This document shows, in pieces, positions 29,154-30,491 of a stretch of DNA of 64,000 bases; position 1 is the stretch's first letter; every line of letters starts with the position of its first letter. The notes under the pieces are model-generated. The model worked only from the letters and a program-made list of their open reading frames with translations. It searched no databases and had not been told where the DNA came from. Source of the DNA: Arcobacter arenosus. Its GTDB lineage: Bacteria; Campylobacterota; Campylobacteria; Campylobacterales; Arcobacteraceae. The position numbers and the translations under genes were made by a program. The stretch lies in NCBI RefSeq assembly GCF_005771535.1, contig NZ_VANU01000005.1, forward strand, positions 54,213-118,212. Reading direction: 5' to 3'.

Positions 29154-29180
29154 AAGCGGAGTTTATCTCCGCTTTTTTTT
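29154..29180 (+). terminator. Terminator of aroC
   Basis: A perfect 8-bp stem (29154-29161 with 29167-29174) with a five-base loop and a run of eight T (29173-29180). It lies 60 bp after the aroC stop. It touches the stop codon of the convergent NifX-like gene. Confidence 0.92.
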
Positions 29181-29518
29181 TAACTTAATTTATGTAATTT
29201 ATCGTTAATAAAATCACTATAAGTATCAAGTACTGTTTTTTTAGAATCTGTAAGGAATACAGAAACACCACTTTTTTTTAGTTCTGATAAAGGCAACTCT
29301 TCATTTTCTGGAAGAATTAAAACTCCAAATCTTTCCTGTTTACATTCGTTTACAATCTCGAAAGCTGAGTTAGGATGTGGGTTTTTGATAATCTGAACAT
29401 CTGAAATATTCTGTCCATTTAAATCTAAAACTGTTAAATATTCTGATTCTTCAAAATTACTTTCAAGAACAGATAAATAACTCATTTTTTGATTTGTTGG
29501 GAAGACTACTCTAAGCAT
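29180..29518 (-). CDS. NifX/NifB-associated-family small protein
   Basis: A 112-residue protein that looks like the dinitrogenase iron-molybdenum cofactor-binding fold (NifX, NafY and NifB C-terminus family). The N-terminal strand MLRVVFPTNQKM, the central IIKNPHPNSAFEIVNECKQERFGVLIL and the final LKKSGVSVFLTDSKKTVLDTY follow that ribonuclease-H-like layout. Metal-ligand residues are not obvious, and only one Cys is present. Such orphan proteins often sit near DUF134 genes, as here. No nitrogenase genes are in view, so a role in nitrogen fixation is not implied. A good ribosome binding site (AAGGAG) precedes the ATG. The family call is moderate. Confidence 0.6.
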   Translation of the reverse strand: MLRVVFPTNQKMSYLSVLESNFEESEYLTVLDLNGQNISDVQIIKNPHPNSAFEIVNECKQERFGVLILPENEELPLSELKKSGVSVFLTDSKKTVLDTYSDFINDKLHKLS

Positions 29519-29570
29519 TTAAACTCCTTAGATTAGATTATTAAATTCAATGCATTTAAAAAAGAAATTG

Positions 29571-29655
29571 AAACATCAGTCGCTAGGACGAGTGAAAAAA
29601 GTAATGACTAGGGAAAAGACAATTATGTATTTTAATCCTAACCAAACTGATGTTT
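29571..29655. ncRNA. Candidate structured RNA or leader element
   Basis: A perfect 10-bp closing stem (29571-29580 with 29646-29655) encloses 65 bases. Inside it, TAGGA (29584-29588) pairs with TCCTA (29636-29640), giving a stacked inner helix with an asymmetric internal loop. The rest is A-rich with ACTAGGG and GACGAG segments. Read on the minus strand it would lie in the 5' leader of the NifX-like gene, 53 bases before its ATG. Read on the plus strand it lies 245 bases before DUF134. I do not recognise it as a known riboswitch class. Orientation is undetermined. Confidence 0.4.
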
Positions 29656-29801
29656 GAAATACATTCTATTAAAGCTTATATTTATATACAATTTGTACAA
29701 TATCGGGAACCATTTTGGTTACCGTAGAGAGAAGATCACATGTTTTATATTGTATAATTATATATTAAGTAATTATTAAGTCAAACTAATAACTGCTTAA
29801 A

Positions 29802-29852
29802 TGAACATATGTCAGAATTGTATCAATTTTCTGAACATATGTCAAGTATAAT
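29802..29852 (+). promoter_or_regulatory. Promoter of the DUF134 gene with paired operator-like repeats
   Basis: The 13-mer TGAACATATGTCA occurs at 29802-29814 and again at 29832-29844, exactly 30 bp apart, i.e. about three helix turns. Each is nearly palindromic around ACATATGT. TATAAT follows at 29847-29852, so the second copy covers the -35 zone. This layout suggests binding by a dimeric HTH protein, perhaps the product of the gene itself. Confidence 0.6.
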
Positions 29853-29900: not shown

Positions 29901-30491
29901 ATGGCAAGAGAAAAACTTGAAAGAAAGTTAGAATTAAAGCCCGTATCAAAGTACTTTGGACCTAAAGATATCCAAGCAAAACAAGATGTAATTTTATTAC
30001 ATGAGGAGCTTGAAGCTATCCATCTTATGGACTCATTTTGTATGTATCAAGAGGATGCAGCAAAAAAAATGAATGTATCTAGAGCTACATTTGCTAGAAT
30101 TATAAAAAGTGCTAGAAAAAAAATCTCTTTAGCTTTAATTACGGGAAGTAATATAAAAGTTCATGAGATTAAAAATGAATTTCATGTTGCAATTTGTTCA
30201 AATAGCAATACGAAACTTGAATATTCAAATGCAGATGCAAAATATATTTGGATCTATTTTATTAAAGATTATAAATTAAAATCTTCAAATTGTATTACTA
30301 ATCCAGCATATGGAAATAATGAAGAGGCACCATGTAATATTCTTCCAGAAGTATTATATGACTATGCAACTAACTATTTTATGCTAAAAGATATTGATTA
30401 TGATTTGAAAATTTCTTTGATAGCTAAAGGTATTTATCCAATTTTACAAGAAGATATAACTGAAGATAAAATAGTAGACCTATTCCAATAA
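29901..30491 (+). CDS. DUF134-family putative DNA-binding protein
   Basis: A 196-residue protein. The N-terminal ~100 residues match the DUF134 family pattern: GPKDIQAKQDVILLHEELEAIHLMD, then a sigma-4-like helix-turn-helix EDAAKKMNVSRATFARIIKSARKKI. The C-terminal half (about 100-196) has no feature I recognise, though FHVAICSNSNTKLEYSNADA may echo a NifX-like fold. It is divergent from the NifX-like gene, with 382 bp between. The ATG is preceded by AAGG at six bases. Likely role: transcription control of itself and its neighbour, inferred from context. Confidence 0.75.
   Translation: MAREKLERKLELKPVSKYFGPKDIQAKQDVILLHEELEAIHLMDSFCMYQEDAAKKMNVSRATFARIIKSARKKISLALITGSNIKVHEIKNEFHVAICSNSNTKLEYSNADAKYIWIYFIKDYKLKSSNCITNPAYGNNEEAPCNILPEVLYDYATNYFMLKDIDYDLKISLIAKGIYPILQEDITEDKIVDLFQ

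Follow-up and report, generated by a model that had tools for sequence, protein, structure and literature searches.

Upstream of the DUF134 gene of Arcobacter arenosus lies a conserved hairpin, and the question that it raises is what it is for. We analysed it within a window of 64,000 nt, the whole stretch of DNA considered here, in which a 382-bp gap separates the minus-strand gene of a 112-aa protein (29180-29518) from the plus-strand gene of a DUF134 protein (29901-30491); the preliminary description of this DNA had noted a gap of that length between a NifX-like gene and a DUF134 regulator. That description called the hairpin an unrecognised structured element and supposed it to be a metal- or cofactor-sensing leader. 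The first half of this reading has held: scans with Rfam (release 15) returned no family at gathering score in the whole window or in five loci of other genera. The second half has given way to a minus-strand RNA with complementary sites in mRNAs. From the comparisons described below, we consider it probable that the element is the target-binding hairpin of a DUF134-linked antisense sRNA acting in trans, whose loop would pair with the mRNA of prpC (2-methylcitrate synthase) and tune or repress its expression. Most likely it belongs to a small RNA family not described before, one of a known kind, whose strand and structure are well supported and whose target prediction is good.

Structure, strand and distribution of the element

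A closing stem with a nested helix had been noted in the gap, and both are present: AAACATCAGT (29571-29580) forms a perfect 10-bp stem with ACTGATGTTT (29646-29655), and inside it TAGGA (29584-29588) faces TCCTA (29636-29640). The helices exceed the earlier account, with 13 pairs in P1 (29646-29659 with 29567-29580) and 8 pairs in P2 (29635-29642 with 29582-29589), and they surround a long loop in an element that spans 29567-29659 on the minus strand and is present in all 16 genomes of the genus. The 85-mer folded at -21.2 kcal/mol as minus-strand RNA (z = -4.5 against dinucleotide shuffles) and at -16.6 kcal/mol as plus-strand RNA (z = -2.4). The gap was matched by sequence search in 16 of 16 own-genus genomes, the weakest best match (G064, with part of the gap covered) having an E-value of 1.8e-24, and P1, P2 and the long loop are conspicuous in the genus alignment.

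Covariation among relatives, whose absence had been named beforehand as the result that would tell against the element, is present, with changes on both sides of six pairs among the 16 genomes. The covariation set comprised 21 pairs in 15 distinct sequences (315 cells), and 308 cells (97.8%) were paired when read on the minus strand versus 286 (90.8%) on the plus strand. In a shuffle control (n = 500), none was as high as the element in paired percentage or in covariation score, one was as high in the two-sided pair count and 28 in the count of different pair types; when the helices were slid, 30-48% of cells paired. Because the element folds better than dinucleotide shuffles and its helices are kept with two-sided changes in 16 genomes, we regard it as beyond chance. 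The strand, left unnamed in the preliminary description, follows from the pair counts: 24 wobble cells in the helices read as G-U on the minus strand (A-C on the plus strand), against 2 the reverse, and we therefore assign the RNA to the minus strand, reading away from DUF134. These sequence comparisons indicate that the hairpin is real and belongs to a minus-strand RNA.

Within the long loop, a C/U-rich core, 5'-AUUGUCUUUUCCCUAGUCAUUAC-3' (29601-29623, minus strand; GTAATGACTAGGGAAAAGACAAT in plus-strand letters), is identical in 15 of the 16 genus genomes and differs by one base in the other (L016). Its seed, UCUUUUCCCUAG, has a predicted mean unpaired probability of 0.64-0.77 in all 16, and the RNA as predicted combines a conserved secondary structure with an unpaired seed, as expected of an antisense sRNA. 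The genus alignment also shows a second conserved loop patch, UUUUUUCACUC (29590-29600, minus strand), and a second conserved hairpin with a C/U-rich 5' flank (GUGAUCUUCUCUC...GGUAACC..GGUUCCC; 29704-29739, minus strand). The latter, which is partly lost in L016, may be the 5' part of the RNA.

A covariance model of the element identified one strong copy per genome in all 16 genus genomes (94-109 bits). Among the family's other 88 genomes, six gave matches, all of them weak (24-35 bits), and a class sample of 397 genomes yielded strong matches in six members of the genus and 28 bits in one other genome; both searches used stricter filters, which lose weak matches. The strong element is thus confined to one genus among the family and class genomes searched. 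A conserved core common to several lineages upstream of related genes, as would characterise a riboswitch, was not found, strong matches occurring in one genus only. The weak matches look like chance or coding sequence and were rejected as second copies of the element. One of them (L062 1501-1581, in G067) falls inside a reading frame that is presumably HlyD-like, and the coding strand of this gene shows complementarity to the loop of the RNA along some 25-30 bases, probably by chance.

A sub-threshold Rfam scan of the gap gave as its best match a plant microRNA model (E 0.12), and a sub-threshold match to STnc230 in L106 (E 0.44) was set aside. The 6S RNA model (RF00013) had no match in the own genome; since it matched just 6 of 14 control genomes, it may miss 6S RNA here. 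A single long-looped hairpin is unlike 6S RNA.

Promoter, flanking genes and the same gap in other genera

Two copies of an operator-like repeat, TGAACATATGTCA (29802-29814 and 29832-29844, plus strand), stand 30 bp apart upstream of DUF134. Between them lies an extended -10, TGATACAAT (29817-29825, minus strand), of a probable minus-strand promoter. TGnTAyAAT occurs at this place between the repeats in 15 of the 16 genomes of the genus, which makes a start of the RNA near 29810, overlying the first repeat, probable. The DUF134 protein itself (PF02001, Pfam E 1.2e-15) is a probable regulator of this divergent promoter, and a TATAAT (29847-29852, plus strand), read from the sequence in a neighbourhood that is conserved in the alignment, is the probable -10 of its gene. 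The repeat-bearing stretch upstream of DUF134 has matches in many genera of the family. Titles and abstract openings of the literature bearing the term DUF134 contained, among the matches listed, no description of its function.

Operator-like words of the form TGAACATATG (some with one mismatch) were present at 26 sites in a search of the own genome, versus 7 for the control. Some stand near the genes for lactate permease, SufB, pyruvate:ferredoxin oxidoreductase and pyruvate dehydrogenase E1 (L069, L071, L076, L085), hinting that DUF134 may govern pyruvate and Fe-S metabolism.

On the far side of the element, the gene for the 112-aa protein comes next in every one of the 16 genus genomes. We call it NifX-like, although the name is weak: similarity to Nitro_FeMo-Co (PF02579) stayed under the Pfam cut-off for each of the four proteins that were scanned (E 0.14 for the window protein and 0.0002 to 0.0014 for three homologues). 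No clear terminator was seen between the element and this gene in the 16 genus genomes, and the RNA could continue into the gene. Of the features of a discrete transcript, a promoter-like word is present in 15 of 16 genomes and no clear terminator is seen in the genus; a terminator-like hairpin is present in the genus g15.

The same gap was compared in four other genera (g3, g18, g15 and g4), where its minus strand carries C/U-rich hairpins, with a long A/U hairpin behind them. Of the 12 loci checked, 10 (all except L092 and L106) have a minus-strand U-run after this hairpin, with four or more U in seven bases, an arrangement that looks like a terminator. The minus-strand gap ends in a hairpin and U-run in six of six g15 genomes, and the outer arms of the g15 hairpin vary in the alignment, judged by eye, through A-U, U-A, G-U and U-G on the minus strand. 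In g15 and g4 the terminator-like hairpin lies upstream of the NifX-like gene, which was not found in three g3 loci or three g18 loci (L092, L106, L027). Smith-Waterman scores between the own-genus RNA and the stretches of the other genera were within those of shuffles for most pairs (the lowest shuffle counts, 6, 7 and 15 of 200, were all with g4), so we claim only a shared position and not homology. Nor was pairing of the other genera's stretches with their own prpC above shuffles in any of six own pairs. Two matches to the g15 RNA elsewhere than at its own locus (L115, L116) were put down to chance.

Within the same gap, the minus strand in g3 contains a C-run of 9, 10 and 5 C in L089, L090 and L091, reminiscent of a phase-variable repeat; in one genome (G032, L089), ACUCCUUUGUUAUCUAUUU on the minus strand is partly complementary to the prpC leader (L173), with a duplex not above shuffles (z -0.7). 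In several other genera a short membrane protein gene and then an oxidase gene, which we take to be cytochrome bd, stand divergent to DUF134 at the same repeats.

These observations bear on a different reading, in which the element is a cis-acting minus-strand leader of the NifX-like gene, whether riboswitch, attenuator or protein-binding site. The gene is next in all 16 genomes, and because the genus has no clear terminator in between, a leader role is possible; the terminator-like hairpin before this gene in g15 and g4 is, moreover, attenuator-like. We nonetheless consider such a leader unlikely. It is made doubtful by the gaps of g3 and g18, which hold similar minus-strand stretches (of undemonstrated homology) without the NifX-like gene. 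The NifX-like proteins of the 15 other genus genomes are 40-64% identical to that of the window, whereas 15 of 16 genomes share an identical loop core, and restriction to one genus would be unusual for a ligand pocket. A cofactor-sensing leader, as originally supposed, is doubtful also in that what is nearly invariant is a C/U-rich loop, to which conserved sites in the prpC and ackA mRNAs are complementary; a leader leaves these sites unexplained. Leader and trans-acting roles could coexist.

Complementary sites in prpC and ackA mRNAs

The antisense reading rests on the loop core, which is complementary to CUAGGGAAAA, a site that coincides with the prpC Shine-Dalgarno sequence or lies just 5' of it. 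We read prpC in 26 of the 27 genomes asked, 16 of the own genus and 10 of other genera (G102 had neither a prpC nor an ackA match). Of the genus genomes, 14 of 16 have the exact word CTAGGGAAAA 20-34 nt 5' of the prpC start codon, compared with 1 of 10 others (G080, a g15 genome that has the site without this RNA), and it is the commonest 10-mer common to the 16 spacers of 75 nt before prpC. Near-forms are found in G056 (CTAGGGAATA) and G060 (CAAGGGAAAA). The site overlaps the prpC Shine-Dalgarno sequence in five genomes, and a separate one lies downstream in 9 of the 14 exact cases.

Two types of PrpC, 42-46% identical, both carry the upstream site. With NCBIfam models, PrpB and PrpC of the first type passed the cut-off, and PrpC of the second type fell short of it for the same families. 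At the loci where prpB was read, one genus can have prpC of either type after prpB, apparently by replacement in place (L167-L190).

The predicted duplex between the RNA and prpC amounted to -23.4 kcal/mol in the window genome, where prpC ranked second among 128 start regions (mechanically called ORFs of the window and other own-genome loci), and to -30.6 to -34.0 kcal/mol in G056, G054, G067 and G068. No more than 10 of 300 shuffles were as good in 12 of 16 genus genomes; pairing was weaker in G055, G057, G065 and G060 (21, 41, 43 and 112 of 300). The second loop patch, UUUUUUCACUC, pairs further upstream of prpC in five predicted duplexes (G000, G056, G067, G054, G063). Among the nine genomes of other genera compared (G035 was left out), only G080 had an equally strong duplex.

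A second site occurs in the 3' tail of ackA (acetate kinase), about 20 nt past the stop codon and directly before a terminator-like hairpin. It is exact in 7 of 15 genus genomes, near in two (G065 and the window genome) and absent from the other six, and was found in none of 10 genomes of other genera; these counts leave out G057, whose tail was not read. Predicted pairing, folded with one stretch of each tail as far as the terminator-like hairpin, was -17.0 to -20.1 kcal/mol in the nine genomes with the site versus -6.9 to -13.6 kcal/mol in the six without. In the window genome the letters of the site have changed (CUAGGGGAAGAC), and pairing is kept at -18.6 kcal/mol through a G-U pair and one bulge. 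A second close copy of ackA adjoins the first in G068, G054, G067 and G056 (L296/L308, L298/L309, L290/L310 and L297/L311), and both copies lack the tail site.

Conserved complementary sites, as expected for an antisense sRNA, are thus present in two unlinked mRNAs, almost only in the genus that bears the RNA; by sequence they track its presence with one exception, G080. The sites alone might be explained differently, if a protein that binds RNA or DNA recognised CUAGGGAAAAG and the element served that protein as a decoy or a further site, given that the same words stand at three unrelated places: the element, the region before prpC and the ackA tail. This we consider very unlikely. The strand that is structured bears the complement and not the motif, pairing at the ackA site has been kept although letters have changed in the window genome and G065, and complementarity extends well past the motif in several genomes.

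We also searched more widely for complementary sequences. The loop complement CTAGGGAAAAGACA, with up to one mismatch, had 34 matches in the 16 genomes, comprising the 16 elements and 18 others, versus 3 for a reversed control; of the 14 others with a locus, 5 were in the prpC spacer, 2 in the ackA tail and 7 in or near reading frames. A wider search with WCTAGGGAAAA had 110 matches in the 16 genomes versus 36 for its control, and grouping the matches by eye put prpC and ackA next to the elements in order of recurrence. Loci were read for 89 of the 110 places; the other 21 correspond, by count, to elements (13) and prpC sites (8). With L200 unclassified, 88 places fell inside reading frames in sense (36) or antisense (25) orientation or between frames (27), L222 being classed as coding by a short ORF though it is an ackA tail. 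In the own genome the 10-mer TAGGGAAAAG showed little excess, with 20 matches versus 9 for the reversed control: one element, one prpC site and others mostly inside reading frames.

Single-genome matches before other genes exist, and single sites can arise by chance, since AGGGAAAA resembles a Shine-Dalgarno sequence. The prpC and ackA matches might likewise be coincidental, Shine-Dalgarno-like or terminator-flanking sequence unconnected with a conserved structured RNA, and the purine-rich AGGGAA does look like a Shine-Dalgarno sequence. We find this scarcely credible: the prpC site is present in 14 of 16 genus genomes versus 1 of 10 elsewhere, most exact cases have a separate Shine-Dalgarno sequence downstream, and the ackA tail sites are not ribosome sites. 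A plus-strand leader of DUF134 was rejected on the strand counts and on the probable TATAAT of DUF134 itself, which lies downstream of the element.

Proposed mechanism and relation to known systems

We infer transcription of the minus strand, as well as the start and end of the RNA, with the promoter probably that between the two repeats, which DUF134 may bind and thereby control. The loop seed, extended by UUACUUUUUUUCA in some species, would pair with CUAGGGAAAAG over or adjacent to the Shine-Dalgarno sequence of prpC, keep ribosomes from entering and so reduce the amount of 2-methylcitrate synthase. In roughly one half of the genomes of the genus, the loop would also pair with the 3' tail of the ackA mRNA and may alter that mRNA's stability. 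The locus provides a candidate sRNA with two predicted targets, a prediction at the level of the site and a likely controller.

A broader view, which we hold tentatively and with somewhat less than even confidence, is that the DUF134-linked divergent promoter may be a regulatory slot whose output differs between genera of the Arcobacteraceae: a cytochrome bd operon, the NifX-like gene or fast-evolving sRNAs. In this genus it would hold an RNA that arrived independently at control of methylcitrate synthase and acetate kinase, the two enzymes also targeted by the Neisseria sibling sRNAs, and that would tie propionate and acetate metabolism to the signal sensed by DUF134; this RNA may double as a leader of the NifX-like gene.

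To our knowledge, base-pairing sRNAs with known targets are few in the Campylobacterota, and we know of none in the Arcobacteraceae. A search of titles and abstract openings gave no report of this RNA among the matches listed. Helicobacter pylori, which belongs to the same phylum as Arcobacter, has the sRNA RepG, and Neisseria has the sibling sRNAs, of which Bns1 is presumably a member. Judged from published descriptions, the sibling sRNAs appear to be the nearest system in function and RepG the nearest in phylum.

RepG uses a C/U-rich terminator loop to pair with a G-repeat at the tlpB leader (PMC8295292). The RNA proposed here would similarly oppose a C/U-rich hairpin loop to a G-rich leader, and both are encoded beside a regulator gene (a response regulator for RepG). 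They differ in that RepG's loop sits in its terminator and its target is the tlpB G-repeat. Its authors looked for homologues, with Arcobacter spp. among the species covered, and are reported to have found none beyond Helicobacter (PMC8295292), and a study of Arcobacter sp. L left genus-confined motifs unnamed (PMC6429828).

The likeness to Neisseria lies in the predicted targets. Those given for the sibling sRNAs NgncR_162/163 include prpB, prpC, ack and gltA, and for earlier targets the SL2 loop is described as obstructing the ribosome binding site (PMC9973317). Bns1 is reported to lie divergent to an operon with transcription regulators (GntR/DeoR) and to act positively on the prp operon (PMC4423775); the two papers differ in the sign of the effect on prp genes. 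Like the siblings, the Arcobacter element is a stem-loop RNA beside a regulator gene with prpC and acetate kinase as (here predicted) targets, although it belongs to another phylum and has other neighbours, and the likeness is drawn from descriptions rather than sequences. The siblings are an adjacent gene pair, whereas here each of the 16 genomes has a single strong copy. Convergence of the two systems on prpC and acetate kinase would suggest that RNA-based control of carbon use tends to act at these enzymes.
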